Shown one piece after another: positions 3,602 through 51,500 of a stretch of DNA of 64,000 nucleotides. Under the pieces are notes generated by a model. It was not told where the DNA came from. It worked only from the letters and a program-made list of their open reading frames with translations, and did no database searches. Position 1 is the first letter of the stretch. The number at the start of each line of letters is the position of its first letter. Origin of the DNA: Crambe crambe (Eukaryota > Porifera > Demospongiae > Poecilosclerida > Crambeidae); contig OZ004587.1 in the NCBI GenBank assembly GCA_963924555.1, positions 4,960,001 to 5,024,000 of the forward strand, in the 5' to 3' direction. The position numbers and the translations under genes were made by a program.

Positions 3602-6600
3602 TTACCACCACAACACTCTAGGGTCTGCTGGTCGCTTATATCTCTCTGATAAACAAAGTACTGTTAAACTTGTATTCTGCTGTAGACTTGATAGGATTAC
3701 ATCAACTCCTTCTTCATATGAATGATCTTCATGTAGATGTAGTTCTTTTAGTGAAATGTTTTTCTCTAGCATCTCACTCATCGCCTTAGCTCCTTCCACT
3801 CCAATAGCATTGCCTTGCATTATTAATACTAACAAGGTGGAGTTTTCAGATAATGCTGCAGCGATGTGAATGCATCCTTGTGATGTTATTTCACAGTAAG
3901 CTATACCAAGGTATTCTAACACTGCATTAGTTTTAATCGCATCACCAATGGAAGCTGCTCCAATATCTCCTATTGGGTTCCAAAATAGTTTTAATCTGGT
4001 GAGTGATTTATTGATGGCAAGACCTGCTGACAACTGCACTGCTCCCTCACTGGTAATTTCACACCAAGCTATATTAAGGTGCTCTAACACTGCATTAGTT
4101 TTAATTGCAACACCAATGGAAGCTGCTCCAATATCTCCTATTGGGTTCTCCTGTAATTCAAATACGATGAGTGATTTATTGATGGCAAGACCTGCTGACA
4201 ATTGCACAGCTCCCTCACTGGTAATTTCACAGACACTTATATCAAGGTCTTCTAACACTGCATTAGTTTTAATTGCAACACCAATGGAAGCTGCTCCAAT
4301 ATCTCCTATTGGGTTCCCCCATAGTTCTAATCTGGTGAGTGACTTATTGACGGCAAGACCTGCTGACAACTGCACAGCTCCCTCACTGGTGATACTACAA
4401 GAATTCAATATTAAAGTTTTTAAGCTCATCAATGCACATGTGAGGAGTTCAGATAAAAGAGTTGAGGAAATTTCATCAAGTTTGTTGTACTCAAAATCCA
4501 ATTCCATAAACTGCTGGAGTATAGGATGAGGGATGTTTACAAAATGTTCAATGCTATGAATGTCACAGTTATTAAAGTCAGCACTTGTTATTTCTCCTTT
4601 CCAAGTTACTGCTCTCATCTTCATCAACCCTTTGGAAAACATTTCTATTCCCTCATTTTCCATGTATGAATATCTAAAGCCCAATTTCCACTTGCTTTGA
4701 GAATATGCCATAAAATGGCCCACCACGTAGTAATCAAGAGGACTCCATTCATGAGATGATGACACTTGTATCAACTCACGAGATGCCATCAGATTAGAAA
4801 TTGCATCAGTATCACCAGCTTCATACATCCAGTGATAGGCAGCTGCACTTCTATAATCTGAGATATGCTCTCGAATCATTTCTGAAGTGAAGGCATTAAA
4901 CTTGGAGAGACCGAAATAGAATTTCATCACCACGCTCAGGTGACCTACTTTGACATGTTCTCTTATTAGCTGCTGTTGTGTGTGGAGAGGCAACTGTGTG
5001 ATGTGGTAGGCAGCTAGAAACTCTTGAAGCGTCAGATGGATGAAGTGGTAGGAGAGCTCGGCATCCTCAAGATAGAGCTCTTTCACTGATACCATCAATC
5101 CTAGAGTCGCTCCATGGATATCAGCACTGCTGAATGTCAGCTGTTGAATCATGATTCCTTCCCAAGCCAGTTTGCTTAGGGCCAGCAGCTGTTGATGCAC
5201 ATCTGGAGGGAGGTCCTCAAGAGATCCAATCTTCCAGGACTGTTTGCCGTGTGCCTTATGTCCTGAAAAGTGCTGCATCAGCAGTTTACATGTATACACT
5301 GTGTAGAGTTGGGTAACGGTGGTTGGGGAGATTGACTCCATGTCTCGGCTCCACTTGAATACATCTGTCACTATGTTGGCAGTCACAGGAGTGTGCATGG
5401 CTGCCTTCATAGCTGGATAATAGTTCACATAGTCCAAAAATTTGCTATGGATGTCGGGACGAACCCTCTCTTCTCTCAATACTCGACTTAACTCTAAAGT
5501 AGGAGTTGTGACAATTTCGATATGCTGGTCCACTTGGATTGATGTGTTCTCAACGATTGGCTTTGTGGCCCATGGTCGGCTGGTTATGATTATGGTAGCT
5601 TTGGGTAGCTTGCGACCATGTATTAAATCAAGAAATATCGAAGACACTTTCCTCATTCTTTGTTCCAGTTCGTCCCAGGCTTCCAGCCACAGGACCACAC
5701 CCTCTCCTTGGCTGCTCTCCACTTCCTGTGCTATGGCCCCCTGGAGCTGAGGGTGGTGGAAGAGGTCAGAAATACTTTTGGCTGACCTCACTCTGTTGTC
5801 TCGTAGGGGAAGGAGGACCAGTAGGGTGTGGTCATTCAGACGTTGGCCCTGAGACCACTTGAAACAGAATTGTTCACTGAATGTGGTCTTGCCCACACCT
5901 GGAGCTCCTTCGATCAGAACTAGTCGTGGTTTTTTCCTATATTTGGGGTCAATTGCTTCATCTTCTGTCATAGGGTATTTCTTGTAGATGACATCATCTT
6001 TGTCTCCCCTGATCGTACTCTTAGTGAAGCTGTCCATTTTTTTCCAATGAATCCCCTCCTTCTTTATCCTTGCCAGTTTGAAAGCAGAGAGGTTCTTGCC
6101 CTCCATGGTGGAATAGGTGTCCTTCAGGAAGGCTGCATACTTTGGAATACTTGAATATTTGTATTCTTTACCATCGATGGTCATGCATTCTATTTTGTGT
6201 TCCTTGAAGAATTCTTTATTGTCAGTGTTCTCCAAGTCCTGCACTAAAGTGGAGGCGATCTGAGCAGGCAGCAACCATGTGACTATCAAACTGCCATGTG
6301 ATACTTTCTTCAAGATGAGGGCAAAGGAGGGGAGGAGGAACTTGCGGATGATGTGACCTTTCAACTCTTCTAGTTGCTCCAAAGTGCATGTCTCCCAGTC
6401 TAATTTCAGGTGGAGTACAAATTCCTTCAGATCCGCTTCGCTAGGCCTGCTTTCAACTACTGGACAATGCTTGGCAAAGTCACACAATCGAGTGTTACGT
6501 CGAAAAGATTCCAGTGAACTAAGATAACTCTTCATATTCTGCATCAGAGTTTGGTCTCTGATGTTATGAACTAAATTTTCCAATAGTGTATAATTCATAA

Positions 6601-9600
6601 AGTTCCAGTACTCACTAAGTTTTCGCCAAATGCAGTTAATGGTGGACTCACCATCCAATTCTTTTGCCATTTGTTCAAAGAATTCCTTATGTTCTTCTTT
6701 GTACTTGATCGGCAATGTCATGAGGCGAGCTTTGAATCGATTGACAGTATAATCTTTCTCAATTTTATCATACGTCCGAATTGATATGTCATTAAATTCA
6801 TCTTCAAGGTCTTGTGTTTGCTGTGGAATTGTTTTTTGAAGGAGATCTGCAATATACAAAATAACAGGTATTCGACTCAGAGATATATGTAGTGATTATT
6901 GTTATGATATTGTTCTGTTCTATTACTCTATTATTATGACATGGTTTCAGATTTTTCTCAAGTCTCCTGGTAATGTTGTAATCTTCTAGTCTGGTCGATT
7001 GTATATACCTTAAGGTGGGTATTATTAGCGACTTTAGCGAGTAGGCCTTTATTTGCTAATATAAGCACACACTAATAATAAAATTACGTATAATTAGAAG
7101 TAATATTGAACAAAACAGTGTCAAACTAGGCTAGCTGTGTGAACGTGAGTGTCCTTGCGGAGTTAGCTAGCTAGCTAGATTGCTGTTGTCTTCATCAGAG
7201 TCTGTTTGAGATACTTCATCATCATCTAATTTCATGGACTCAAGAATGGCAGTAGTAGGGGTGGAAAAAGGCAGGAGTGACAGGTGTGATAGATGGAAGT
7301 ATCACTATTCCAAATCAAGATCCTTTTTGTTCAATCTACAAAATATAACTCTCCAATGATAGTTACTGACACAATAATGCATTATATTGTTTGTGCCTGA
7401 TATTCTTGAAGCAACTTCATATGAACTTACATTAAAAATAGCTATTACACAAAGCTCAAAATAGCTAAAATTAATACCCGCCAAATACAGTATCCAGACG
7501 TGCAAGAAATCAACCACACGTGTCCGTCCCATCTGGTGCCGTCCCCAGCTATATATGTTTCTGGAAGATCGAAAAAAGAAGCTTTATTCCGATACTTTGA
7601 ATGCAAAAGACTTGTCTTCTGGATCCCCAAGGCCCCCCCCCCCTTTCAAGGATTGTACCTTCTTCACTGGTGTAGAAAGTTGCTATGGAAGATTGTCCAG
7701 GCAGAAGGCATAATAAGTACGCTAAATATGATCCACATACTGGCTTCTACCATGAATGAGCACAATTAACTTCTACTTCTAGGACAGGCACCTGCAACTC
7801 TTGCAGATGATTCATTTATGCATAGTGCATGGCTGGCTACAGCTAGCTGTATGCACCGACCATCCACGAAATTTAACCACGAACAATTTCATTCCCCCCA
7901 TAACACAAAATTTTTACCCCTTGAAAATAACCCGATTTTATATAATCAAGAAAGTTTGAGCACACCTTTTGGAACTTCTCCTTCCATAGGAAGTTTTGGA
8001 CCTTCCATGGTAGATGGAGGTGAGGTGGAGTCCATTGGATGTGATGGAGGAGTCATAGGACAACCTGCAACAACAGAATAACTGATTAGAAATTTACTCT
8101 CCTCTTCAATAATTACCTTTGAGAGAGATGTTGTGAGTGTTGCTAGTGGCAGTGATGGTGTCCTTGAGGAAAGGGGAGGTGAGGTTGATTTGGCAAGTGT
8201 ATTGACCAGCATGGGACAGAGAGAGAGAAGGGAAAGAGAGAGTGTTGTCTAAAGACTCAACCTCAAACAGCACTACTCCATTGTGACTCCAGCAGTATGT
8301 GATAGTAGGACTGAAATCTTCAGCACCTGATACAGTGCAGGAAAGGCAGTATTTCTCCTCCACTGAGGGGTTGCCCCCAGTAATCACCACTTCAATTGGA
8401 GGGGCTATAAATGAAGGAGAGAGAGTCTGGTCAATATTTTATAGCCTCAAATTGACATTGTCTGATGTGCCTTGCTGTTAAGGGGCTACAGGACAAGACA
8501 AAGTTATGGTAGCATTCTACAAGCAGCTACTTAGGTAACTGGGTCATATACATTCTACATCAGATATCAATACTGTAGATACTACTAACTTACCATCAAG
8601 GAAGACTTTCTCCTCCTTTACTACTTTCTCAGCTAAGCTTTTAAATCCCACGGTAGGCTTGATCAGAGCGGACACAACAGCTTTCCACGAGATCTCACCC
8701 CCACATCCATTCAACCACTCCACCAACATGAAAGTGAAGCACTTATCCTGGTCATCACGATTGTTGGCCCCCAACACTTGCAGGATGTCGATTGGGAGAC
8801 GTAGCTGGAGTCCAAAGGTGAACCACTTGGTCCTCGCTTCCCACAGACAATTTTGAATGTCGGCAAAATTGGACGAAATCAATTCAACTATGAATCATAT
8901 TTAAAATATACTACTAAAATTGTATTGTTGCTACTGATATTGCATGCAAAGCATAGTCATAACTACTTGACTCACTTCCTGGACCAGGGTTGGTCTCGAC
9001 GTCTCCAGCACAGTGTAGTAGACAGCATATAATGGTGATAGAGAAGGCCACAAACAAGTACACACCAAGTCCTTTCAATATCCTCTGTTTACTGCAACCT
9101 CCAGGGGCTTGAGTCATACAGGAAGTGTCTGTTAAGGGAAAAGGAAGACTCATTGTTTTAGGTAAAGGGTTTTCAACATGGTAAAGGGTAATCATAGTAC
9201 AACCATAATAGTATGGTGAACTCCCTGTAATCAGGACCCCTGAAATGAGGCCACCCTTCTTATTAGGACACTTCTGCTGGCTCAAAGGTGGCCGGATTAG
9301 AAGGATTCAACTGTATCACATTCAGGAATTATATTATTGGCTTTCAGAGAACTCTTTCACTGCAATGACATGTTGGTGTTTCTTGGTCATTCTACTCATC
9401 TAAATAACACTCTTTTTAAAGTGATTGCTCAAACATATTTTCTACCATTACGATAGAGATTGTACTATTGTGAATGATGAAGTTTAAATCTTGGAGGCAA
9501 TAATATACGACAGGGGCTGATCCAGAGAGGGTGAAATGGGTGACTTATCACCCCCCCCCCTCCCCCCCTCAATTTTAATGATATTCATGATTAATAAGAA

Positions 9601-10154
9601 TACTGACATTATTCATTAACAGAAATTAAACATCTGCGAGTCATTTTTCTCGGGTATTTCTGCTTAAAATTGTCACAGACTGCCTTAATGTATAGCAAGC
9701 CTTTCTTTGTGGTCAATCAAAAAGTGGGTGTAGCCACTGGAATTACATGAATTTTAGTTGTCACCCTTCTTTCTCAAATCCTGGATCAACCCCTGTACAA
9801 GGTATACATCACATATTGGAACCACGGCTCTATTGCATCTAAGCAATCCATGTACCATTAAAATGCCAATATTCTGACTTCCAATACACTCATAAGAAGA
9901 GGGGAAGAGGGTAAATGATTTCAACTTAAAGACAACTTGCTATGCACATTTTTAGCTTATGAAATATGTAAGGGGTGGTTCATGAGGGAGATAGCGTCAG
10001 AACGGGGGTGGGAGCTGAACTGACCGATTAGCGAGAGTAGCAACTCTTCCAGGATTTTGTTGGGAGAAATAGAGTGGCATTTCATTGAAGCACGAGAACG
10101 GGCAGCATTGTTCAGGCCTACACTGGCCCTCCACTGCTCCATACTGACTGGCAT
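3602..10154 (-). CDS. NLR copy 1: 2A leader - death - Ig - NACHT - LRR receptor, 1402 aa
   Basis: Six exons join in frame, all at phase 1: 10025-10154, 8976-9128, 8594-8887, 8117-8404, 7966-8064 and 3602-6846 (TAA at 3602-3604). Residues 1-92 are a leader with a hydrophobic segment (about 66-82) ending in the 2A-like motif DVETNPG/P. Residues 95-192 are a helical death-fold-like domain (IQNCLWEARTKW, DILQVLGAN, LVEWLNG). Residues 193-288 are an Ig domain (C-S-C, YCWSHNG, AGQYTC, NLTS glycosylation site). Residues 289-321 are a Pro/Ser/Met linker and 322 to about 620 a helical region. NACHT follows with Walker A GAPGVGKTT (Lys about 641), Walker B-like VVLWLEAWDEL and the TSRPWA motif. LRRs run from about 1110 to the end. 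It is probably an innate immune sensor. The initiator Met is the first ATG of exon 1 and is conserved in copy 2. The splice model is inferred, but all junctions are canonical and match copy 2. Confidence 0.88.
8976..9128 (-). other. 2A-like ribosome-skipping signal with hydrophobic leader (NLR 1, exon 2)
   Basis: This exon encodes a Cys/Lys-containing head, a hydrophobic run (VYLFVAFSITIICCLLH) and then CAGDVETNPGPG. The consensus D-x-E-x-N-P-G-P is complete. 2A-like peptides make the ribosome skip the Gly-Pro bond, giving two products without a protease. Here the skip would release a 92-residue leader and a receptor starting at the Pro just before the death domain. The hydrophobic run immediately upstream could also act as a signal sequence or membrane anchor if skipping fails. 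Confidence 0.85.
9129..10024. mobile_element. NLR 1 intron 1 with a copy-specific inverted-repeat insertion
   Basis: Positions about 9510-9797 are absent from the matching intron of copy 2 (near 21,130). The insert starts acaggggctgatccag and ends in the near-complement ctggatcaacccctgt, so it is a roughly 290-bp element with terminal inverted repeats of hAT-like type (CAGGGG...). It includes a C-run at 9551-9568. No clean target duplication is visible. The segment at about 9210-9315 belongs to a dispersed family also seen at 20,825-20,965 and 49,250-49,411. Confidence 0.55.
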
Positions 10155-10839
10155 GGTTACAGAGTACTACCTGTGTAAGAACAAGGCAAGGGGTGAATTC
10201 ATTATTCCACTTGATTCACTTCAGTAGATCACCAATAGCTGGTGTAGGACTGGTTCAACAAGCATCTCTTATTCCCACATCAAAAGCCACAAAATCTCAT
10301 GGGAAAGTGTCCCATAGGACACTTACGCTGTCTCACTCCGGGAGGGATTCTGCTACTATAACCACTCGATAGGTTAAATAATCTGATTTGGTTAACTAAA
10401 AGCAGGACTCTCTAGGTAAGACACGATAGTGTTACATGTGTGGGAGGAGCTCGTAATTATGGGTGTGGTTATAAGCGTGATCACTACGCGCGCGCGTCAT
10501 GCTTATGATATGATAATAGCAAGAACCAATTCAGTGTACTACTGTAATCAGTACTGTTTCAAGAACATAAAAGTTTAACTTTTTCCAGCAAGGTGATAGA
10601 CTCAACTCTAGGCAGGAGCATAGTGAATCGAACATCTACAAGAAAGTAGCAAAAAGCATTTTAGTACTGAAAAGGATTCTGAAATTGCCATATTAATGAT
10701 GTAACTACCATGTAAAATAGCTAGTTGGTATTGATGGTCATAGCTATTACTGGCAATTCATAAAAAATACTACCCTTATAATTTTAGACACATGAAGCTA
10801 GCTAGCTATACTTATCTCTAGCTCTATACAGCTGTCAAC
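10155..10839. promoter_or_regulatory. Upstream region of NLR 1
   Basis: This lies between the NLR start and the alliinase remnant and is closely repeated at 22,108-22,800. It contains an alternating purine-pyrimidine run (cgcgcgcg near 10,488-10,497) present in both copies, and otherwise AT-rich sequence. It presumably holds the NLR promoter and 5' UTR. I see no TATA box that I could defend. Confidence 0.4.
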
Positions 10840-11280
10840 CTTTATCACTGGTTCCAAACTCAGTTCCATTGAGTCCAGAGAGGTTGACCCAAGCAAAGTA
10901 ATCAGCACAGGGTCCCCCTGTGTCACAGTGGATCCATGCATACGCCCCTGGCAGAGGTGTTGGAAGCAAGATTCGATTGGTCAGGCCCGAATCTACAGAT
11001 TACTGAAGCTCTATATTTGAGCATCTTTCTTTTGTTTTTGATTGATAGCTACTTAATAACCTTGTTTTCCCCCAAATATTGGTCAGGCCTGAGCCTGACT
11101 GGCCTGACCTGTTCCACCGCCTATGCCTGGGGAGTCAAGGGAGTTCTGGAGCTTGAGAGCAGGACAACCACTCAGAGCTGAATTCAGCTGATCGAATAGA
11201 CTGTACATGACATTACGACCATATTCATACAGTCCTAGCAAGCCACTTGGACCTAAACCTTGACCTGCACACAGGGATCA
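10840..11280 (-). pseudogene. Alliinase-like last exon, interrupted (unit 1)
   Basis: This matches the last exon of the alliinase-like gene at 22818-23068. An insertion of about 179 bp (10952-11130) splits it between the two halves of tacgcccctgg/ggagtcaagg. The remaining upstream exons are gone: intron sequence continues to about 11,425 and then joins directly to sequence matching 25,650, a loss of roughly 2.4 kb. Only the C-terminal exon is left, so this copy cannot encode the enzyme. Confidence 0.8.
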
Positions 11281-11457
11281 ATTTTGGTGAATGGTGATTA
11301 GCTAATCAAAAAAATAATCCCCACTAGCTAAAATATATAAGAAATGCCATGTTAGCTACAATGAATTGTATAAATTTAAGGTTATAGTCAATGATTTGTA
11401 GTGCCACAAGAAATAAGTCAGTAGATAACAAAGAAAGTCTAGAAGTTTTATAATTAC

Positions 11458-12353
<896 letters not shown>

Positions 12354-15300
12354 CTGTAACACAGAGGAAGGGAGGAGGGGATATAGAGGGAGAGATAAAG
12401 AAAAGAGAGTGAGTGTGTGTTAGAGATGATTCCATGAGAATATTTACTACAAATTCATGAATGAGGACATCATACTGACAAATCCAATGTTAACAGTATC
12501 CTGATTAGAGGGTTATCCTCATCTACAGATCTAGCTATAGATATCAGTGTCTTTCATCTACACATACACTTGTTATTCAGTACTCTATATGCATATCAAG
12601 TGTCCTAATTAATGGGTCGTCCTCATTGCATATCATCTTGATTGGATCGGTGTCCAGATTAGAGGGCATCCTCACAGGCCTACTTACATGAGCTAGAGAC
12701 TTGGGAGGGCTAGTAATAGGAAAAAGTATAGTGTGAACACCTATTGGAGTGATCGAGGCAGCTGCTCTACCACCAGGTGGTGGTTCAGTCCAAACTGCAT
12801 GGTGGTACACGTACATCTCTGTTGAAAAGACACATAGGGGTGGTCCAGTTTCACCAGGTTCTGAATCTACAAAATGACAATGGCCATATCATGATAATTA
12901 TATGGCAGTTAAAAAGTCCAGATAGAATATCCTAAACAGTGAAGGAGCGAAATAGCATCAGGCCTATAGCTATACAATCCAAAGAAAATTTTTATCAGAC
13001 ATCTGACGTTTTGACCTGGCAAATGCCCTACTATAATCCTCACTGTTAATCAGAGAGATGAGGGAGTAGCTAGGAGACGTATATGTACATAGAGGAAGGT
13101 GGGGGGAGGAGGAGAAGGAATGAGGGAGTGGGAAAGAGAGAAGTGGGGAGGGAGAGATGAGGGAGTAGGAGACGTACATAGAGGAATAAAGGGAAAAGAT
13201 GGAAGGGTACAGCCTCCTCATTGCTCTCTGGCTCCTTGGAGGGGTTAGGACAAGGAAGAGGGTGGTGGGGGCATGGTGAATTTGTTTCTGAATCAGAATT
13301 GGATAAGACTTTGATGTGGAGACAGAGGAATTTGAAGTTTTTGATGGCTGAAGCATAATATTGAGTGACTGTGATGATGGAGACAGTAGCTACGTAGAAG
13401 GTTCAGAGGCGAGTATGGGGTGACATGACCACCCTTCACCCTAAAATGGGATAACTTTTTACCATATGAAATTTTTCACCCCCTAATGTGTGAACATATT
13501 ATGTAGTGGTGGACAATGGGACTATGGGAGGCTCCAGTTGGCCAACAATCCTTCACAATAAGACAATAAGGTTGTGCAACAACAGAACATAAAGGCTAGT
13601 GTGGGACTCGCTTGGCTCACCTCAATCAGGATGAAATGACTGCTCATAATATGACCAGAATGCTTATTATCATATTTGCTGCTGTCAATATTGTCTTCTG
13701 GGTAGTGAGGGGGGAACCAGATCTGTCCCTGTCAGGATCACTGGTTAATTGCTAGGATAGTACCCACCAATGAAAGAAAAGAAGAGTATAGCATTAGAAA
13801 GGTATGACTGGTATTGCCCTGTCTTTGCATGAACATGCAAACCCCACTCCTCCACAGATTGTAAGTAGAATAGCTAGTGATCTCGCTACTTGGTTCTGAA
13901 CTATTTCGAGAGTGAGAATACTGACCTATTTGAACTCTGTGTTTGAGAGGGACACTGCAACACTTCATTGAATCCATACTAACAAGTTTAAAGAAGAGAG
14001 AGAGAGATGATGCGGAAGTTGAATTTTATACTTTTGCTGTGCTGCAGTGCAACACTTCCTGCTTGACTAAGTGCAGAAGGCGTGGGAGTGCAACAGCCAC
14101 ACCTCCCAAGATTAACATCCTGCAGGGACTACTCTAGGATCATAAGTCTAAGGTTTAAGTATAAAAATAAAACCTTTTTGTGTAAAAAATACAAAGTGAA
14201 AGATACAAAGTGAGTGATATTTTTAAATTCACAAAAAAAAAGTGAACAAAGTGTTCAAATACGTACAAAAATCAGGTAAAAAATTATTTATAAGTTGCAT
14301 AGTGGTAAGCAAACTAGTAGTTACTTTCTTTTTTTGTTTTTGTTTTTTGTTGTAATTTTTTCTTTCTTAATTCTTTTTTTCTTTTCTTTCTTCTTCTTTT
14401 AATGGTTGAAACTTATCAGGCTTTCAGTCTGTAAAAATCAAGTCACCATGTAAATGTTGACCATGCAGCTAATTGAACTAATAGAGGAAATCTCACTCAT
14501 CCACAAGTATTATTCTAAGTTACGGGCATCCTGCAGTCAATCCAGTGGATTTTGTGAATAATTTGGGACCCAGCCTTTTGTCGTTTATACAGTAGAGAGG
14601 TTGTCCTCTTTTAAACATTATCATTTTAGTATCGAGTATATACAAAGGTTGAGAGTTTTGCCCTCTTTCAGAGTGTCCTTATCAGAGGTTCCATTGCTTG
14701 GTCTTACAATTACAGCTTTCAATATAGTTACTGGTTGGTGATTAACAGTCTATGTCTGTGACTTCAGAAATAGCTATAGCTAACACATCAAAGAATGAAC
14801 CCTGTACCCACCGACCCACAATAAATTGAGCAATGCTCACATAGAGGGAGGCATTATAGTCCATGCAAACATGATATTGTGTTTGGTAAACTGTGTTCTA
14901 GGTACCATGTACAGCAATGATTATTAATTACTTCAATGGCAAGAGACATAACAGTAGAGTTAGAGATGGCTGTCCATAAGAACCAGTGGGTCACAAGGAC
15001 CATATTGAATTCCACTTGTATAGGGAAATATAGTATGATATGCTATCTTGACAGTATCAGATTAGAAGCAATGCTTTAATGACCCCATAATCATGGCTTG
15101 ACATGATACAACACCAACATCATTACATGCAGTGATATGGAAGGACAAAGGAAAGTATGATGAGCTAATTATTCCACACCATGTTAGTCATTATCACCAC
15201 AAATCTATAGTGGACATTAAACACAAGGTTGCTTGGTCTGTACTTCAGTACTAGATGAGGACTATGCACCCATACGACATAGCTAAACATCACAAGTTTC

Positions 15301-15477
15301 TACCAGCAATAGTCAACACTCAACATCTAAAACTAATCAATTTGATGATCACATAAAAGTTCTAAAACCAAGCAGTATGATCACATCACTGTCTCCACAT
15401 GTCTCATCAAGTATCAATTGTAGCATGGACCACCACTACATGCACACATGCATACACATAATCACACAGTCCTCACC
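12354..15477. other. Second copy of the NLR 3' flanking region
   Basis: This is near-identical to 484-3601 with small indels. It carries the second orphan exon (12688-12866), the HIF1AN exon-3 relic (about 13,690-13,790) and T-rich runs (14,320-14,400). About 60 bp near 14,620-14,680 are present here and absent from unit 1. No convincing gene is seen apart from the orphan exon. Confidence 0.6.
12688..12866 (-). CDS. Orphan candidate exon, second copy
   Basis: Same length, splice sites and open frame as 856-1034, with a few substitutions including His to Pro near the end. Keeping an open frame in both copies is weak support for coding function, because the duplication may be recent. Family unknown. 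Confidence 0.38.
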
Positions 15478-18400
15478 TTATTGATACCACACCACTCTAG
15501 GGTCTGCTGGTCGCTTGTATCTGTATGATAACCGAAGTTCTGTTAAACTTGTGTTCTGCTGTAGACTTGATAGGATTACATCAACTCCTTCTTCATATGA
15601 ATAATCTCCATATAGATGTAGTTCCTTTAGCGAAGTGTTTTTCTCTAGCATCTCACTCATCGCCTTAGCTCCTTCCACTCCAATAGCATTGCCTTTCATC
15701 CGTAATATTAACAAGGTGGAGTTTTCAGATAGTGCTGCAGCGATGTGAATGCATCCTTGTGATGTTATTTCACAGCAAGGTATATCAAGGTGTTCTAACA
15801 CTGCATTAGTTTTAATCACATCACCAATGGAAGCTGCTCCAATATCTCCTATTGGGTTCCCCCATAGTTCTAATTTGGTGAGTGACTTATTGACGGCAAG
15901 ACCTGCTGACAACTGCACAGCTCCCTCACTGGTAATTTCACAGACATTAATATCAAGGTAATCTAACACAGCATTAGTTTTAATCGCATCACCAATGGAA
16001 GCTGCTCCAATATCTCCTATTGGGTTCGAATGTAGTTTTAATCTGGTGAGTGACTTATTGACGGCAAGACCTGCTGACAACTGCACAGCTCCCTCACTGG
16101 CAATTTCACACCAAGCTATATCAAGGTGTTCTAATACTGCATTAGTTTTAATCGCATCACCAATGGAAGCTGCTCCAATATCTCCTATTGGGTTCTCACA
16201 TAGTTCTAATTCGGTGAGTGACTTATTGATGGCAAGACCTGCTGACAACTGCACAGCTCCCTCACTGGCAATTTCACAGTGATTCATATGAAGGTGTTCT
16301 AACACTGCATTAGTTTTAATCGCATCACCAATGGAAGCTGCTCCAATATCTCCTATTGGGTTCTCACATAGTTCTAATTCGGTGAGTGACTTATTGATGG
16401 CAAGACCTGCTGACAACTGCACAGCTCCCTCACTGGCAATTTCACAGTGATTCATATGAAGGTGTTCTAACACTGCATTAGTTTTAATCGCATCACCAAT
16501 GGAAGCTGCTCCAATATCTCCTATTGGGTTCTCACATAGTTCTAATTCGGTGAGTGACTTATTGACGGCAAGACCTGCTGACAACTGCACAGCTCCCTCA
16601 CTGGTGATACCACTATAATTCAATACTAAAGTCCTTAAGCTCGTCAGTGCACATGTGAGGAGTTCAGACAAAAGATTTGAGGAAATTACATCAAGTTTAT
16701 TGTAGCTAAAATACAATTCGATAAACTGCTGGAGTATAGGATGAGGGATGTTTACAAAATGTTCAATGCTATGAATGTCACAGTATCTGAAGTCAGCACT
16801 TGTTATTTCTCCGTTCCAAGTTACTGCTCTCATCTTCATCAACCCTTTGGAAAACATTTCTATTCCCTCATTTCCCATATATGAATGATAAAAGTCCAAT
16901 ATCCACTCGCTTTGAGAATATGCCATAGCCATAGAATGGCCCACCACGTAGTAATCAAGAGGACTCCATTCATGAGATGATTCCACTACTATTGACTCAC
17001 AAGATGCCAGCAGATCAGAAATTGCCTCAGTATCACCAGCTTCATACATCCAGTGATAGGCAGCTGCACTTTCATCATCTGAGATATGCTCTTGAATCAT
17101 TTCTGAAGTGAAGATATTAAACTTGGAGAGACCGAAATAGAATTTCATCACCACACTCAGGTGACCTACTTTGACATGTTCTCTTATTAGCTGCTGTTGT
17201 GTGTGGAGAGGCAACTGTGTGATGTGGTAGGCAGCTAGAAACTCTTGAAGCGTCAGATGGATGAAGTGGTACGATAGCTTGGCATCCTGTCCACAATAAA
17301 GCTCTTTCACTGATTCAATCAATCCTAGAGTCACTCCACCGATATCAGCACTGCTGAATGTCAGCTGTTGCTTCATGATTCCTTCCCAAGCAAGTTTGCT
17401 TAGGGCCAGCAGCTGTTGATGCACATCTGGAGGGAGGTCCTCAAGAGATCCAATCTTCCAGGACTGTTTGCCGTGTGCCTTATGACCTGAAAAGTGCTGC
17501 ATCAGCAGTTTGCATGTATACGCTGTGTAGAGTCGGGTAACGGTGGTTGGGGGGGTTGACTCCATGTCTCGGCTCCACTGGAACACATCTGTCACTATGT
17601 TGGCAGTCACAGGAGTGTGCATGGCTGCCTTCATAGCTGGATAATAATTCACATAGTCCAAATATTTGCTACGGATGTCGGGATGAACCCTCTCTTCCCT
17701 CAATACTCGACCTAACTCTAAAGTAGGAGTTGTGACAAGTTCGATATGTTGGTCTACTCGGATTGAAGTGCTCTTGACAATTGGCTTTGTGGCCCATGGT
17801 CGGCTGGTTATGATTATGGTAGCTTTGGGTAGTTTGCGACCATGTACTAAATCAAGAAATATTGAAGATTCTTCCCTCATTCTTTGTTCCAGTTCGTCCC
17901 AGGCTTCCAGCCACAGGACCACACCCTCTCCTTGGCTGCTCTCCACTTCCTGTGCTATGGCCCCCTGGAGCTGAGGGTGGTGGAAGAGGTCAGAGATACT
18001 TTTGGCTGACCTCACTCTGTTGTCTCGTAGGGGAAGGAGGACCAGTAGGTTGTGGTCATTTAGACATTGGCCCTGAGACCACTTGAAACAGAATTGTTCA
18101 CTGAATGTGGTCTTGCCCACACCTGGAGCTCCTTCAATCAGAACTAGTCGTGGCTTCTTCCATTTAGTTTCATATGTGGCCTGAGCAACTTCATCTTCTG
18201 TCATAGGGTATTTCTTGTAGATGACATCATCTTTGTCTCCCCTGATCGTACTCTTAGTGAAGCTGTCCATTTTACTCCAATCGATCTCCTTCTTTTCCAT
18301 CCCTGCAAGTTTGAAAGCAGCGAGGTTCTTGCCCTCCATGGTGGAATAGGTGTCCTTCAGGAAGGCTGCATACTTTGGAATACTCGAATATTTGTATTCT

Positions 18401-21400
18401 TTACCATCGATGGTCATGCATTCGATTTTGTGTTCCTTGAAGAATTCTTTATTGTCAGTGTTCTCCAGGTCCTGCACTAAAGTGGAAGCGATCTGAGCAG
18501 GCAGCAACCATGTGACTATCAAACTGCCATGTGATACTTTCTTCAAGATGAGGGCAAAGGAGGGGAGGAGGAACTTGCGAATGATGTGACCTTTCAACTC
18601 TTCTAGTTGCTCCAAAGTGCATGTCTCCCAGTCTAATTTTAGGTGGAGTACAAATTCCTTCAGATCCGCTTCGCTAGGTCTGCTTTCAACTGCTGGACAA
18701 TGCTCGGCAAAGTCACACAGTCGAGTATTACGTCGAAAAGTTTCCAGTGAACTAAGATAACTCTTCATATTCTGTTTGAGAGAACGGTCTCCAATGTTAC
18801 GAATAAGGTTTTCTAAGAGTGTGTAATTCATAAAGTTCCAGTATTTACTCAGCTTGATCCAAATACTATTGATGGTCGACTCTTTTTCTAGTTCATTCTC
18901 AATTTGTTGGAAGAAATCCTCGTGTTCTTCTTTGTACTTGATTGGTAATGTCATGAGGCGAGCTTTGAATCGATTGACATCGATATCCTTCTCTATAATT
19001 TTATCATACGTTTGAATCGATACATCCATAAATTCATCTTCAAGGTCTTGTGTTTGCTGTGGAATGGTGTTTTGAAGGAGACCTGCAATATACAAAATAA
19101 CAGGTATTAAAAGTCTATCATTATTATTGTTATATTGTTCTGATAAGGAAACTCTCCACATTAAAAATGAAAAGGATCATGTGTATGAAAAAATAATAAA
19201 CGCAAAAAGACTTGTCTTCATGATCCCCAACCTTCGCTGGTGAAGAACGTTGCTGTGGAAAATTATCCATCAGGCATAAGGCATAAATAATACACTAAGT
19301 AACTGGCTTTTATCGGGAATGAGCTAGTCATAGTTCTACTTCTAGCATACGTAGGCACCTGCCACTCTTGCAGCTCATATATGCTTAGTGCATGCATGGC
19401 CAGCTACAACTAGCTCTACACACAGACCATCCACGACCACGAATAGTTACACTTGCCCCAAAACACGAAATTTTTACCCCTCGAAAATAACCCGCTATAC
19501 GGTAATCTATAGCCTTCCATGTATATTCCATACAAGCAAGAAAGATTGAACATACCTTTTGGAACTTCTCCTTCCATAGGACCTTCCATGGTAGATGGAG
19601 GTGAGGTGGAGTCCATTGGATGTGATGGAGGAGTCACAGGACAACCTACAACACAGAATAACTGATTAGAATTTTTAATTTTTTTACTCTCCTCTTCAAT
19701 AATTACCTTTGAGAGAGATGTTGTGAGTGTTGCTAGTGGCAGTGATGGTGTCCTTGAGGAAAGGGGAGGTGAGGTTGATTTGGCAAGTGTATTGACCAGC
19801 ATGGGACAGAGAGAGAGAAGGGAAAGAGAGAGTGTTGTCTAAAGACTCAACCAGCACTACTCCATTGTGACTCCAGCAGTATGTGATGATAGGACTGAAA
19901 TCTTCAGCACCTGATACAGTGCAGGAAAGGCAGTACTTCTCCTCCACTGAGGGGTTGCCCCCAGAAATCACCACTTTGATTGGAGGGGCTATAAACGAAG
20001 GAGAGAGAGTCTGGTCATAGCGTTAATCGACATTGTTTTGTGTTAATGGGACTACATGACATTAATGTGGCCAGAACTACAAGACAAAGTTATGGTAGCA
20101 TTCTACAAATCACTGCAGCAGGTCACAGACAATTTTAGGGTACCATTAAGTTAGCTACATCAGATATCAGTACTGTAGATTATACTAACTTACCATCAAG
20201 GAAGACGTTTTCATCCATTACTATTTTCTCAGCTAAGCTCTTAAATCCCACGGTAGGCTTGATCAGAGCGGACACAACAGCTTTCCACGAGATCTCACCC
20301 CCACGTCCATTCAACCACTCCACCAACATGAAAGTGAAGCACTTATCCTGGTCATCACGATTGTTGGCCCCCAATACTTGCAGGATGTCAATTGGGAGAC
20401 GTAGCTGGAGTCCAAAGGTGAACCACTTTGTCCTCGCTTCCCACAGACGATTTTGAATGTCAGCAAAATTGGACGAAATCAATTCAACTATGAATCATAA
20501 TTAAAATACTACTGATATTGCATTGATTCTACTGATATAGCATGCAAAGCATAGTCATAACTATTTGACTGACTTCCTGGACCAGGGTTGGTCTCGACGT
20601 CCCCAGCACAGTGTAGTAGACAGCATATAATGGTGAGAGAGAAGGCCACAAACAAGTACACACCAAGTCCTTTCAATATCCTCTGTTTACTGCAACCTCC
20701 AGGGGATTGGGTCATACAGGAAGTGTCTGTTAAGGGTAAAGAAAGACTCTGGATGTGTCAATTGGTAAAGGGTTTTCAACATGGTAAAGGGTGGTCATAA
20801 GTACTACTATATAGTACATAATATACAGTGAACTCCCTCTAATCAGGACCCCTAAAATGAGGCAACCCTGGTATTTAAAAAAGTCCTTCATAATATAAAT
20901 TCACCCCTGAAATGAGGCCACCCCTCTAATCAGGACACTCCTAAGGTGGCCGAGTCCATTGTATCTCATTTACGAATGTCAATCAATTTCAGGAAACTCT
21001 TTCACTGTAAAAAGCTTGCAATATGTTGGAGTCTCTTGGTCCTTTTACTCGTCTAAAGAACACTCTTTTAAAATGATTAATTTTCTACAATTACGATTGA
21101 GATTATAGTATGAAGTTTATACCTTGGAGGCACGAGGTATACATCACCTATGGCTCTATCATCTAAAGTAATCCATGAATCATTAAAATGCCAATATTCT
21201 GACTTCCAATGCACTCATAAGAAGAGGGTAAATGATTCAACATGATCGAACTTTCTACTTAATAGCAGCTTTGAATGGAGATCTGCTCACTTATTGCTCC
21301 ATTTACCTCACATGAGACTACTTTTCAAACCAAGAAGTACAACTGTCAGGTGTTTGCCTTAATTGGCACTGAAGCATGTAGAGCATGTTGATACAGGCCA

Positions 21401-22107
21401 TGATTAGCCAAGCTATTAAGAGCACCTTGAAACGACAGTCTAACAGGAAAGCCAAGAGCACCTAGAGAACAACGACAACATGCTCAAGAAAGAACAGAAA
21501 CAGCAGAGAGAACAATCTATGATTGCTTGAGTAGACAGCAATTAATTATGAGAGTCATGATGAGCGTGACTAAAGACATGATTTAGCTAGGCAACAACAA
21601 AGCCAAGAGCACTAATATAAACAACTATATACCAGAAAATCAGCCAGACATCAGGAAGGCTGAGTACAAGCCTTGCATGGAAGTGAACATTTGAAATTCC
21701 AATCAGAGGGCACCTAGCTACAAGAGAATATAAACCTAACTCTACCCTTCAAACATTGAGTGTGCACTATTAAGACATTACCTACCTAAGTCGATATAGG
21801 CCTAGCTAGCTAACAGTGCCGAGGCATTAGTCTTTTAAAGACAAACTTGTTATGCACTTGTCTACTTACATTTAGCTTATAAAAAATGATATCCATTATC
21901 AGCAGAGCAAGTAAAATCACATAGTTATGGTATATGAGGGAGTAGAGAGTCAGGACAGGGGTGGGAGCTGAACTGACCTATTAGTGAGAGTAGGAACTCT
22001 TCCAGGATTTTATTGGGAGAAATAGAGTGGCATTTCACTGAAGCACGAGAACGGGCAGCATTGTTCAGGCCCACACTGGCCCTCCACTGCTCCATAGCGA
22101 CTGGCAT
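15478..22107 (-). CDS. NLR copy 2: 2A leader - death - Ig - NACHT - LRR receptor, 1517 aa
   Basis: Six exons join in frame at phase 1: 21978-22107, 20574-20726, 20194-20487, 19707-19988, 19556-19645 and 15478-19082. Domain order is as in copy 1: leader with 2A DVETNPGP, death-fold domain, Ig domain, linker, helical region, NACHT (GAPGVGKTT, VVLWLEAWDEL, TSRPWA) and LRRs. In-frame differences are two residues lost in the Ig exon, three in the linker exon, and two extra 56-aa LRR units (five instead of three). All open frames are intact, so both receptors look functional. An upstream in-frame ATG at 19161 lies in intron 5 and is not used in this model. The most divergent stretch in the last exon is its N-terminal helical part and some LRR surface positions. 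Confidence 0.88.
16191..16526 (-). repeat. Two identical 168-bp LRR-coding units
   Basis: Units 16191-16358 and 16359-16526 are identical base for base as I read them. Each encodes 56 aa, i.e. two ribonuclease-inhibitor-type LRRs of 28 residues. The neighbouring units are close but not identical. This indicates a very recent unit duplication or conversion inside the LRR array of NLR copy 2. Confidence 0.9.
20574..20726 (-). other. 2A-like ribosome-skipping signal with hydrophobic leader (NLR 2, exon 2)
   Basis: This is the same design as in copy 1: hydrophobic VYLFVAFSLTIICCLLH, then CAGDVETNPGPG. The 2A core is unchanged between the copies. Changes fall outside it (Ala to Pro-neighbouring Ser in the head, Ile to Leu in the hydrophobic run), which suggests the motif is kept by selection. 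Confidence 0.85.
20727..21977. other. NLR 2 intron 1 with a copy-specific insertion of about 590 bp
   Basis: About 21,241-21,830 has no counterpart in NLR 1 intron 1; flanking sequence matches 9,895-9,945. The insert is A-rich and non-coding, and I see no clear terminal repeats. At 20,825-20,965 there is a copy of the dispersed repeat with aatcaggacccct and aaggtggccgagt blocks, shared with unit 1. Confidence 0.5.
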
Positions 22108-22817: not shown

Positions 22818-25360
22818 TCAACCTTTATCACTGGTTCCAAACTCAGTTCCATTGAGTCCAGAGAGGTTGACCCAAGCAAAGTAATCAGCACAGGGTTCCC
22901 CTGTGTCACAGTGGATCCATGCATACGCCCCTGGGGAGTCAAGGGAGTTCTGGAGCTTGAGAGCAGGACAACCAGTCAGAGCTGCATTCAGCTGATCGAA
23001 GCGACTGTACATGACATTGCGACCATATTCATGCAGTCCTAGCAAACCACTTGGACCTAAACCTTGACCTGCACACACGGATCAATTTGGGTTAATGGTG
23101 ATTACTGTTTATTTTGCCAATCAAAAAAATAATGCCCACTAGAATATAAGAAATGCATGTAAGATTAGTCAATGATTTGTAGTGTCACAAGAAGTCAGTA
23201 GATAGCTATGTATTTATGACCAGATAAGGCCAGTTTAGGTTATAGGTGGTAGCTATTCAAGTTTAGCTAACTCTTTGGACTTACTGAGAGTAGTCTCAAG
23301 ACTGGAGAGTACTCTCAATTCAATGTCTGCTGATTGTGCTATGACAATGGATGAAGCCACATCTGACATGCTGTCTGCAAGGATTGGATCACGAACCAAA
23401 CCCCATCCAAATCTGGTACCAGCCAGTCCATCATTTTTTGAACTGTTAATACCATACATCAGTAGCTATGTGATTGATACACTCTAGCTAAACCTCTAAA
23501 TAGTGTAGCTACATCAATTAACATGTAAAAGATGATCAAATGCTATAGATACATGAGAGAGGAACTTCCCATGGACCCACAGTATCCTTTGTTCAGATAT
23601 TTAGCTACACTGCATAGCTAGCAAGCTATCTCTCACCTTGAGAATATCATGATGGATTTGTTCATTACTTGATCAATGTTGGTGAACATGGGCCAGTAAT
23701 ACACCATGTCTGTTATGACATGGTCTGGATCCTTCACTAGTGGTTTCTTCTTTGAGCCATCCGGGTTGTTGGGGTAACTGCAACCATGCATAGAATTCAT
23801 GGAATGAATATTATCAGGGGTTTACCCTTCAGCTATTTTTAAGAAGGAAAGAATATAGCTAGCTTGCTATAGCTACCTTGTCAATTTGCACCTCAATTGT
23901 TTTATACATAAAAACCTGTAGCTACCAATAATTATAGAGAACTAACGTTACAATCTCAATGGTCCAAGGAGAGTTAGGATCAGCGCTGAGATTCCACCTT
24001 GCAGTGGAGATGCGAGCAATGATGTCAGGGTAAGAAGCATAGTAAGGGACTTGTGCTAACACATCTACTCTGTCAGGACAATTCACACTGCAACTCTTCA
24101 AGATTTTCTCAGTCAATGCTACCACAGTAATATAGATTACCATGGTAGCACCCATGCCTGTTACTATGTGGTAGCCTTCTGTCACAGCATTCTCAGTCTT
24201 TAAAGAAGTAAAAACAACAGATGATATGATTAGCATTGAAACAAGTAGCTACAGAAAAAAAAAATAGTAATAAAGAAAAAAAGCGGCATAATCTAGTCTG
24301 AAACTGCAGCTTCATATGTAGCTATACTTTCCATTACTGGCAATTTTAAAGCCAGCACACTAGCTAGTACATGTAAGCTTACTATAGAGTGTAGTCTTTG
24401 AATGGAAGAAACTAGAGGAGGTAAAGCTGCATTAGAGATGGCAGAATGAGATGGAAACTGGTAGGCTGGTCTGTAAAATAAGATACGTATAAATAATAAA
24501 CTATTGACTAGCTGACTAGCTACGATAATTATAAGATAGATTTTTTGGTGGATAACTAAAATAAGACAGTGGGAGATGTCACAGCATTCACTCTATCATC
24601 TACTCCTCCCTCCCCTCGAGTGTCAGACCTGTAATGGCCAAGGATTGAAGTACAGGGGTCTGCACCAATGCTTGAATTCTGCCAGTACTCAGCGAAAACT
24701 ATAGGATTGCCACCATATGCTGAGAAATTACAGCTCAGTGTGTCCTCCTTGGTCTTACAAAGAGGTCCCGAGTAACATTGGTAGCAGGGACGACCTTCAT
24801 ATCCTGTGCAGCTGTGAAAAAAATAGTTTTGTTAATGCAGTTGAAGCTTTGAATATGGCTGAAGGATTAGCCACTGTTTTTTGCAGAAAGTTTGTCCTTT
24901 TTTCAGGGGTTAAAAATGTACAGTAATGCTATATGGTAAAAGAACCAAAAAGAGCATCCTTAGTTGGGAGATTGTCCTTTTCTTGGAGGGCAAACTTTCC
25001 ACTATATAGCTTCGAACCCAGCCTCTTTCTTCCTTTCCACTAGCTAGCTGAGTTTCCACTCAGTAGCTACATGATAGCTGCAGTCTTGTGGGATGACAAA
25101 GTAAAAACTTCCAGCAGTGGAGTGGCATGCAGATTCCCGTTCACCTCATTAATATATATTTATAGCTGCTACTTAACAACTTCTAGACTAGCTGAAAGGT
25201 TAGTTACGTGGCTTGACCTGTTGAGCACTGGGTCCCATACGCCTCCAGGTTGACAGGGATCAGGAGACGGGTACTTTTCACATATCTGCACGCATGTCCC
25301 ATCGTGGACCACCTCCAAGGCAAGCAACAGCGTTAGTATTCTTAATCTTATAAACATCAT
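22818..25360 (-). CDS. Secreted alliinase-like PLP-dependent enzyme, 404 aa
   Basis: Seven exons join in frame: 25218-25360, 24629-24811, 24383-24470, 23947-24197, 23637-23777, 23285-23442 and 22818-23068. The N-terminus is a signal peptide (RLRILTLLLALEVV). A Cys-rich EGF-like segment follows (CTGYEGRPCYQCYSGPLC), the hallmark of plant alliinases. PLP-fold motifs are in order: TGMGAT, YPNNPDG, ITDMVYYWPMFT, SK followed by GLAGTRFGWGL (Lys expected to bind PLP), and SPGAYAWIHC near the end. Alliinases are C-S lyases acting on S-alkyl-cysteine sulfoxides; the related TAA1-type enzymes are aminotransferases. The substrate here is unknown. The protein ends about 25 residues earlier than plant enzymes, so a further short exon may be missing from my model. 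Confidence 0.85.
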
Positions 25361-48571: not shown

Positions 48572-51500
48572 ATGCAGTCCAAATTGGTGATTCTGATCGC
48601 TGTGGCAGCATCAGTGCTGCAATGTTTCTCCTGTGCCATGCCTGCAACACCATCATATGTGAAAACTGGAGAATGTGAAGTGAGTTGATTTGCTGAACCT
48701 ATATTAAAGCAGTATGGAAGCTATTGTTAAAATTAGCTAAGCATCATCTCCAGCATCTTTGTTTCTTCTACGTATGAGACAATATTTGTGTTTTACAGAG
48801 TACAGCACAGCATTGTCGCTATTCCTACACTGCCCGGCAACAATACTTTGACAGTGGGGAAGAGGGAGATGTAGAAATAAAAGCGGAAATTGATATAACT
48901 TGCATCTCATGTAAGTAGCTAGGTATAGCTACATGTACAGCTAGTCAATTAGAATAAAGCACCATTGACCACCTGGCATACTATTGTTTTTATAACAGCT
49001 GGGATTCATAATGAAGCATCAGCCAATCTCTATTGCATGGACATCAAGAGTGCCAAAATCTCTGGAAATCTTGTGCAAAATGCTACTGATGAAGAAATAA
49101 GGTTCAGATTTAGTAATGCTGTATAATAGTGGGAATTCTTTGTGTGGTTTTGTGGGAAAATTTTCATGAATTACCTAATACACACACAAGTGGTTCACAC
49201 TTAAATTCTAGCTACTCTCCACAAATTTGTGCTATTCTTTACGTATCCTAATGTGGACTCCCTGAAATGCAAAAACCTCTCTAATCAGGACACTTTTTCT
49301 TGTCCCAACACAATATAAATTAACCCCTAAAATAGGGACACCTCTCTAATTATCAGGACACTTTTCGCTGGTCCCAAAGGTGTCCGCATTTAGAGGTTCC
49401 ACTGTATTTCAGAGTCATTAGCTATCACACTACTATGATTCCTGTACTTTATTAAATAGAGGGATGCAGCAATCAATGACAAAACTGCTGTCCAGATGGT
49501 TCTGTTTCGTCCAGAATTCTCATGGGAAAATAGCAGCTGTTTACCACTCCACCTCCGAGAACAATCAAGCCATCACCTTCAAGAAAGGTGTTGCTGCTGC
49601 TTTCCAGGCCAATTTTGATGACACTGAGGAAGAGGAGGAGACAGATCCAGGATCAACCCACACCTCCCACTACACGTATGTTAGGAGTATAACATGCATG
49701 CATTATGCAGGTATATATAGCTATGATACATATCTGAACCTCTCACTTTTCAGACAATCAAGAGTGAGCTATAAAAATGACGTAACTAATGATTTTTGTA
49801 GAGAATTAGCTAGCTAAGTGTCCTCACTTCAATGTAATGGAACACAAATAGCTACATCATTACTCTCATAGCATTTCATATTGTTAAGAGCATCCACATT
49901 AAGTTATTGTTATAACTGTGAATTACAGCCATGTTCCAACAGAGGAAGGGAAGATGAAGATGAGAAGAGTCGTTCATGGAAATGACGTGCATGAATTCGC
50001 ATCAAATGCACCAAAAAGTGATGTTGAAATGGAGAAGGATGAAGAAATTGAATACGAGTCAGGACATCTGGTGCATTCTGCTGGAAACATGACTGTGCGG
50101 TTTGTGAATGAATCAGATGACACAGAAGATGAAAAAGATGAACCTTCAATTTCAAACATGTTCTCGGCAAGCGGATGGTATGATCTTGAATTGCGAAGTT
50201 GCCACAAGACTACTGGTTACATGTTTGGTGTTCAAAAGAAGAAGATTGATTCCAACATGAGAAATTCTATGGAGGAGGATTTGAAAGCAACAATTGATGA
50301 AAGTGAGTATAATTATAGCTAGCTAAAAATTAAGTCTGAGGTTCTGAGGTTTGATTATAAATATCCTTGCCATTTGCAAATGCTCTGGCCGGCTAATTAA
50401 GAGCAAAGAACCATAATTTGTTATAATTTTGGTTTGTTGTTGTTGCTATTATTATTATTAGTTTCTCTTTTTTCTTTGTTTATAAAGGAGCTGAGGCACT
50501 TCAGGAGATGAAACTTCTGAGAGAAAGATTTCCATCTGGATCCGTTATAGAAGTTTTACAACACTACAAGGGAGATCAAGAAAGCGACAAGCTTGGTAAC
50601 TGGGGAAACAAACATGGATAGCAAATATAATTTTATTAATGTCTTTACTAATTAATAGTTGAAAAACTGAAGAGACTCATAGAACTTGAGTCAGAATATG
50701 GAACTCAATCTTCATACACTCCTGCTATTAATGAAATTTTAGCTTTCATTGAACATGTAAATATCACTTCGGTATACAGCTTGCTAGCTACTCTATGATG
50801 AATCTTTGTAATGCAGATACCAAGCACAGAGCCCTATAGAAAACTCAGGGAAGCAGTTGTCATGTTATTGAGTGCTGATGGAAGTCTGAGATCCCAACTG
50901 GTAACTTATTAAATAACTATCTCAAGTATAAAAATCGAATTTAATACTAAACACTGGCCACTTTTTAAACTTTGGCTCACTATAACTCATGACTACTATG
51001 TAGTTGTTATGGTCTGGAAATTTGACGTAGAGATAGTCTGATAATTAATAAGAAAACCGAACAATAATAAATGGGATTGTCACATATGATGTTAGAATTT
51101 TTTTTGTCATCCAGGCCCTCTTGAATGCTTTGGATAATGCAAGTGATAGTTTGGAGGCAAACTCTATCCTCACTCACATATCTTTCTTGGATTGGGCAAG
51201 TCTCGACCTTGTAGTCGGTCTGGAAGATCATTTACGCAACCTGAATCCCAAATTCAATGATAGCATCTCAGACCAGCTACTTTTGGTGTATGGAAGTCTC
51301 GCAACCAAAGGCTCTGAAGAGGTAGAAATTCGAGTCATGAATTATCTTAACACAGTATCTTTGAGCATCAATAGCCAGTCTGATCTCGATCTCTCACAAA
51401 GCATTCTAGTAGTCCATGCTCTAGGGAACACTGGATCAGAGTCATCTCTTAGGGTAATACTTGGCTTTCTTCATCAAAACAGCGAGTCAAAACAGATGCA

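Follow-up and report, generated by a model that had tools for sequence, protein, structure and literature searches.

How is an immunoglobulin (Ig) domain, a module of the extracellular type, accommodated within an NLR, and on which side of the membrane would such a receptor work? The question is raised by two tandem genes on the minus strand of a 64-kb stretch of the genome of the sponge Crambe crambe (contig OZ004587.1, positions 4,960,001 to 5,024,000; C10:4960001-5024000 in the coordinates used here), called below the window. Copy 1 extends over 10154-3602 and copy 2 over 22107-15478. In each, six exons can be joined, giving predicted proteins of 1402 and 1517 amino acids (aa), respectively, with the order: N-terminal exon, hydrophobic leader ending in a 2A (StopGo) motif, death-fold exon, Ig exon, linker, and a long exon that encodes a pre-NACHT region, NACHT, and leucine-rich repeats (LRRs) (Table 1). 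In both copies, the frame is open until the stop within the NACHT–LRR exon. The sequence-only reading of this DNA had reported six phase-1 splices per copy; all exons are present, with AG/GT borders and phase 1 throughout, but the introns are five, not six. Exons 2–5 are symmetric (phase 1), so that each could be added, lost, or skipped without shifting the frame.

The same arrangement is found in a family of loci. The genome was searched exon by exon and only the best candidates were scored, so that the counts given here are lower bounds. Among 97 matches to the Ig exon, 29 sites with at least 57% identity constitute the family; a 30th row overlaps with one of these, and identity is at most 40% in the remaining 67 matches. 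Upstream 2A and death exons together with a downstream NACHT-type exon, all on the same strand, accompany 26 of the 29 sites. With the joined frames and the Pfam matches to Ig, NACHT, and LRR, this order bears out the earlier proposal that death, Ig, NACHT, and LRRs belong to one predicted gene. A strict count (2A motif intact and last exon uninterrupted across the NACHT part, within 4 kb) gives 20 of 29. Left out of it are C10:4842240 (no 2A match), C17:4487220 (a fragment), C21:3307517 (no NACHT-type exon found), C10:4876601 and C17:4481351 (broken last exon), C6:3511410 (match confined to the pre-NACHT part), C9:6224442 (stop inside the 2A exon), C9:8155024 (2A motif lost), and C10:6617746 (last exon 11 kb away). 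One member of the strict set, C10:4697898, is without AG at the last acceptor. A single array, at C10:4.68-4.98 Mb, holds 18 of the 29 Ig sites. Exon 1 is matched at 30 places in the genome; 24 of the 29 sites have it no more than 5 kb upstream, and it was not found within 6 kb of five.

The splice borders are conserved as well. All 26 loci read have the acceptor AG of the Ig exon where it is expected, and 23 of them also have its donor GT in position, the three remaining matches ending short of the exon end; for the death exon, the acceptor AG is present in 25 of 26. Of 19 loci, 15 (two Ig-less relatives included) have the acceptor AG of the last exon where it is expected, while in the other four the match starts inside the exon (three loci) or AG is absent (one). 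The 2A motif is intact in 22 of the 26 Ig loci read; at one of these intact loci, the leader is only about 60% alike and still strongly hydrophobic. The methionine of exon 2 is absent in two copies read, which makes translation from exon 2 alone unlikely there.

Pfam cut-offs are 27 bits for Ig_2, 26.7 for NACHT, 23.4 for LRR_6, 22.6 for Death, and 23.9 for CARD. A domain search on the joined protein recovers part of the order proposed before: NACHT and LRR are found, but Ig_2, which passes for both Ig exons scanned alone, reaches 22.6 bits in the full 1402-aa protein, below its cut-off, and the death exon is without a Pfam match. The Ig call on a single copy is marginal; the assignment is firm because divergent exons of the same type score 33.3 and 36.1 bits with Pfam Ig. 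In both copies, the Walker A motif GAPGVGKTT is read directly in NACHT, and with their C-terminal LRRs the two genes are NLRs. No caspase family appears in the Pfam list for the window protein, and it is NACHT–LRR that comes after the Ig. Three exons from the same slot as the death exon (33-39% identical to that of the window) score 27.7, 25.6, and 28.2 bits with Death, all above the cut-off, and a copy about 75% identical scores 17.4, below it; the label death-fold for exon 3 is probably right, though indirectly, through its paralogues. The 253 aa scanned before NACHT match no Pfam family at E 0.01. This pre-NACHT region (about 250 aa; 6068-6847 and 18301-19083 in the window) recurs genome-wide, behind death or CARD-like exons in the loci read, and is a candidate for an undescribed domain.

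Within these genes, the Ig is among the conserved parts. For the Ig exon, the ratio of nonsynonymous to synonymous divergence (dN/dS) is 0.25 (dS 0.66) and 0.26 (dS 1.51) in comparison with the two most distant of the copies read, which points to purifying selection as measured against those copies. All seven divergent sequences aligned share the B-strand Cys, the core Trp, and the F-strand Cys, and the Cys pair and Trp are retained in all 26 Ig loci read; two further Cys of the window copies are missing from the divergent ones. Between copies 1 and 2, the Ig exon has three synonymous and three nonsynonymous changes (ratio 0.31), and dN/dS is 1.32 after NACHT and 0.76 in the LRR region (4 vs. 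6 units), all on small counts. Variation is concentrated towards the LRR end rather than in the Ig. A role for the Ig as the diversified part in recognition was considered and set aside, since the Ig is among the less varied parts. The exon 5 linker has few changes and no sign of purifying selection. Two N-glycosylation sequons of the Ig are present in 23 and 21 of the 26 loci read, mostly near-identical array copies; neither is present in the two most distant copies, and conservation of N-glycosylation with divergence is therefore unsupported.

On the other hand, the exon that precedes the Ig varies as a block. Three classes of death exon, with 6, 8, and 6 members, can be distinguished among the 20 copies examined most closely (L009-L028). 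The third class is 36-37% identical to the death exon of the window, yet the adjoining Ig exon is 94-98% identical to that of the window. The dS of the Ig across death classes (0.053) is near that within classes (0.038-0.048), and pairwise identity drops between the 2A exon and the Ig exon to rise again within the latter. The death exon thus appears cassette-like, next to an Ig that stays constant; exchange of the death domain at the exon level beside a constant Ig argues that the Ig may have a fixed partner.

The modules also occur apart in the genome, and for this reason the gene looks assembled from modules. Two relatives of the NACHT exon that are without an Ig (67% and 69% identical) have a CARD-like N-terminal exon and the same phase-1 acceptor; Pfam CARD gives 16.3 bits, below the cut-off, in one and no match in the other. 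At C10:4.46 and 4.28 Mb (L067 and L068), 2A–death genes run into the same pre-NACHT region (Death 21.8 and 21.7 bits, both below 22.6); no Ig family is found in the frames scanned between the death exon and that region, and the pre-NACHT frame stops before any NACHT in the stretch read. With these two Ig-less genes, a 2A leader serving as a device specific to the Ig is rejected. Of the other Ig matches in the genome, two that were examined are surrounded by further Ig exons in tandem, accompanied in one case by a fibronectin type III exon.

Just one 19-mer is strongly hydrophobic, aa 63-81 (mean hydropathy 2.42), preceded by basic residues and shortly ahead of GDVETNPGP. On 19-residue hydropathy (no dedicated predictor was run), nothing else in the protein qualifies as a strong transmembrane segment. 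Between Ig and NACHT, the highest value is 1.39, for aa 496-514, a stretch that includes two Lys and one His; a similar stretch is present also in the Ig-less relatives. With a single strong hydrophobic segment, everything past the leader should share one compartment. The leader, hydrophobic and ending in D(V/I)ExNPGP, appears to be of the sea urchin type: NLRs of Strongylocentrotus purpuratus likewise carry death, NACHT, and LRRs behind a hydrophobic leader ending in a 2A motif (PMC4981915). Recoding by a sea urchin NLR leader is estimated there at 80% in vitro, a recoding-dead mutant goes mainly to the Golgi, and a 2A signal leader takes its cargo to the secretory path once StopGo is abolished (PMC4981915). 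Dual targeting was tested in that work for one leader on a reporter. The 26-aa sea urchin leader is at the very N-terminus, whereas in the window genes a 43-aa exon comes before the leader exon. The terms "immunoglobulin" and "Ig domain" do not occur in the main text of PMC4981915. A 2026 StopGo study that cites this work (PMC12846837) has neither sponge, NLR, nor NACHT in its main text.

As to how leader and Ig would act together, we give about even odds to a StopGo-controlled NLR that is mainly cytosolic, has a constant Ig module, and has a minor read-through form in the secretory pathway. Each gene would yield one mRNA for a death–Ig–NACHT–LRR receptor behind a StopGo leader. The 2A motif would usually break the chain right after the leader, so that the main product would be a leaderless cytosolic NLR starting with Pro. 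In it, the variable LRRs would sense, NACHT would oligomerize, and the death domain would recruit, as in other NLRs, with the Ig as a constant, conserved interaction or dimerization module beside the death domain. Upon failure of StopGo, the whole protein would retain its leader and enter the secretory pathway, where the Cys pair of the Ig can close; this read-through form would be minor and possibly regulated.

In MALT1, Ig domains serve as interaction or dimerization modules. This paracaspase, which we take to be a cytosolic signaling protein of the type death–Ig–Ig–caspase without NACHT, LRR, or 2A, has a caspase-like domain after the Ig, where the window genes have NACHT–LRR. The Ig profile of the window matches it (3k0w, E 6.8e-6), although chains of titin, FcRL5, otk, and contactin match better; thus, next to cell-surface structures, the profile matches those of titin and MALT1 Ig domains, which are presumably cytosolic. 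The sequence-only reading had pointed out that an Ig disulfide would not form in the cytosol. An Ig does not, however, preclude a cytosolic protein, given the matches to titin and MALT1; the sequons, moreover, are absent from the most divergent copies. Its suggestion that the receptor can enter the secretory pathway is favored by a hydrophobic leader with a 2A motif like that of the sea urchin (PMC4981915), but a cytosolic Ig is possible too: an extracellular life for the Ig protein is partly supported, as only one of two live options.

Several points weigh against the StopGo-controlled, mainly cytosolic receptor. Six of 19 loci, including window copy 2, have an in-frame ATG ahead of the NACHT exon and in the same open frame, and that exon could in principle start independently. 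One copy is without the 2A motif and another has a stop in the 2A exon, and both retain a long NACHT frame. The Ig-less 2A–death genes imply that serving the Ig is not the sole purpose of the leader. Relative to four nearer copies, dN/dS of the Ig exon is 0.35, 0.45, 0.72, and 0.74. The invariant Cys pair would also fit an oxidizing compartment as the main home of the Ig. Finally, structure models derived from the two window copies only, for the Ig exon and the pre-NACHT region, have a mean predicted local distance difference test score (pLDDT) of 44.0 and 41.9, respectively, and are unusably poor.

Each half of the architecture, the 2A leader on an NLR and the Ig with NACHT, has an echinoderm precedent. 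In the sea cucumber Apostichopus japonicus, AjNLRC4 and AjNLR-new likewise combine Ig and NACHT in one protein and are reported to act in bacterial uptake (PMC8699970, PMC13133943). Unlike the window genes, they have transmembrane segments, and the passages covered mention no 2A leader. AjNLRC4 is said to be without LRR and CARD, with its Ig outside and NACHT inside (PMC8699970); AjNLR-new has Ig, transmembrane segment, and NACHT, in the reverse orientation (PMC13133943). Proteins with Ig and NACHT were previously unreported to the knowledge of the authors of PMC8699970. An Ig between death and NACHT, noted earlier as unfamiliar from named NLR families, is unusual, but the pairing of Ig with NACHT is not without example. 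Among sponges, for which an NLR survey is available (PMC8242945), Dysidea avara has death–NACHT–LRR genes too, next to a CARD–NACHT–LRR repertoire (NLRD/NLRC), some with transmembrane domains; the passages covered name no Ig domain on an NLR (PMC12909245). A differentially expressed D. avara gene combines Ig domains and a CARD domain (PMC6208332). Among the titles and abstract openings listed in literature searches, neither an Ig between death and NACHT nor a 2A leader on a sponge NLR appears.

A second family within the same genome links the same elements. The pattern GD(V/I/M)ExNPGP occurs at 207 genome sites, against 0 for a reversed-pattern control. Among the sites listed, 2A-type motifs cluster on C1, C5, C6, C8, and C9, and weak leader matches are seen on C10:4.1-4.5 Mb. 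On C1:3.55-3.99 Mb, each of nine listed 2A sites has its own partner among nine exons of a different NACHT, in a tandem array spanning C1:3553870-4006049 (L070, L071, L072). These NACHT exons are 72-100% identical to the query copy; that search gave 53 matches, and the NACHT of the window is none of them. Ig matches lie between the 2A site and the NACHT exon in 7 of the 9 units. The one unit read has a leader with GDVELNPGP at its end and a NACHT that scores 57.1 bits; three of its five scanned Ig frames exceed one or more of the Ig cut-offs, and the other two stay below. A putative exon between the leader and the first Ig has a further hydrophobic stretch (hydropathy 2.49). Ig and NACHT are thus found behind a 2A leader on two distinct NACHT lineages, by either separate origin or shuffling.

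If the order of importance of the two forms were reversed, the unsplit read-through protein would carry the function, as an NLR that is secreted or held at the membrane and binds microbes outside the cell through its Ig, with the cytosolic form as a by-product. The strong hydrophobic leader with its preceding basic residues and the invariant Cys pair would suit such a protein, as would the two Ig relatives among tandem Ig exons (one set with fibronectin type III), the separate 2A–Ig(n)–NACHT family, and the location of a sea cucumber Ig–NACHT protein at the cell surface (PMC8699970). However, death and NACHT would then be in the lumen, away from their known partners, and hydropathy gives no second strong transmembrane segment. 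The sequons are absent from the most divergent copies, and the Ig exons of the C10 array are 94-98% identical to that of copy 1 (full exon, gaps counted), unlike a diversifying recognition domain. We regard this alternative as unlikely, although it is the strongest of the rivals.

Less probable still, the 2A, death, and Ig exons would belong to another transcript, or the Ig exon would usually be skipped. Skipping would keep the frame, since exons 2–5 are symmetric in phase 1, and elsewhere the same type of NACHT exon comes after CARD-like exons; the ATG found ahead of the NACHT exon in six loci, window copy 2 among them, points the same way. Yet no in-frame ATG precedes that exon in the other 13 of 19 loci, including window copy 1, nor the Ig exon in any of the six loci checked; the exon order is preserved in 26 of 29 loci with conserved splice borders, and the Ig exon is constrained.

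A split topology as in AjNLRC4, with the Ig outside and NACHT inside, has in its favor that a tested membrane receptor contains the same two domains (PMC8699970). It is very improbable here and is rejected because a second strong transmembrane segment is lacking (on hydropathy only); aa 496-514 is a weak candidate with its two Lys and His and has its like in Ig-less relatives. A chance look-alike or pseudo-exon in place of an Ig, for which the barely sufficient single-copy scores, their loss in the full protein, and some broken copies could be invoked, can be dismissed, being already contradicted by the scores of the divergent copies, the dN/dS against the most distant ones, and the invariant core residues.

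Other genes lie next to the two copies. An alliinase-like exon (Alliinase_C 31.4 bits at 23922-24248; locus 22818-24248) is found upstream of copy 2. The downstream piece of this gene (22818-23081, with no Pfam match of its own) resembles by eye a stretch upstream of copy 1 (10835-11277), and the duplication may have taken along part of a neighbor gene. A Cupin_8 exon (42.0 bits; 12041-12337) is upstream of copy 1 on the same strand. Two similar-looking open reading frames match the N-terminal region of vitellogenin/lipoprotein, at 51052-52482 on the plus strand (24.0 bits) and at 59345-60232 on the minus strand (26.7 bits; cut-off 24).

Table 1. Exons of the two tandem genes in the window (window coordinates)
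Feature	Position	Strand	Content
Copy 1 exon 1	10025..10154	-	First ATG, 43 aa; open frame, phase-1 donor GTCAGT
Copy 1 exon 2	8976..9128	-	Hydrophobic 2A (StopGo) leader, end GDVETNPGPG; motif DVETNPGP read directly
Copy 1 exon 3	8594..8887	-	Death-fold (probable); no Pfam match of its own; 37% identical to a same-slot exon with Death 27.7 bits
Copy 1 exon 4	8117..8404	-	Ig; Pfam Ig_2 28.0 bits alone; AG/GT borders
Copy 1 exon 5	7966..8064	-	Pro/Ser/Thr-rich linker; open frame, AG/GT, phase 1
Copy 1 exon 6	3602..6846	-	Pre-NACHT region, NACHT, 4 LRR units, stop; NACHT 50.3, LRR_6 89.4 bits
Copy 2 exon 1	21978..22107	-	First ATG
Copy 2 exon 2	20574..20726	-	2A leader
Copy 2 exon 3	20194..20487	-	Death-fold (probable); 93% identical to copy 1
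Copy 2 exon 4	19707..19988	-	Ig; Ig_2 28.4, ig 24.7 bits alone, both above cut-off
Copy 2 exon 5	19556..19645	-	Linker
Copy 2 exon 6	15478..19082	-	Pre-NACHT region, NACHT, 6 LRR units, stop; homologous to the Pfam-scored exon of copy 1

The result exceeds the earlier observation, since it concerns a whole gene family with a constrained Ig and not two genes alone. A module of the extracellular type is stably built into a death–NACHT–LRR receptor, and this architecture has spread to 20-29 loci of a genome in which 2A motifs abound. It is conceivable, if doubtful, that this genome coupled a StopGo leader to Ig–NACHT at least twice, on distinct NACHT lineages, giving a class of immune receptors with the compartment chosen in translation, so that one gene would patrol both sides of the membrane and its Ig would be oxidized only in the read-through form. 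If StopGo does set the compartment, the role of 2A leaders on immune receptors would become testable, with the redox and glycan state of the Ig as an internal reporter. The family is a test case for how such a sensor gets placed inside or outside the cell.

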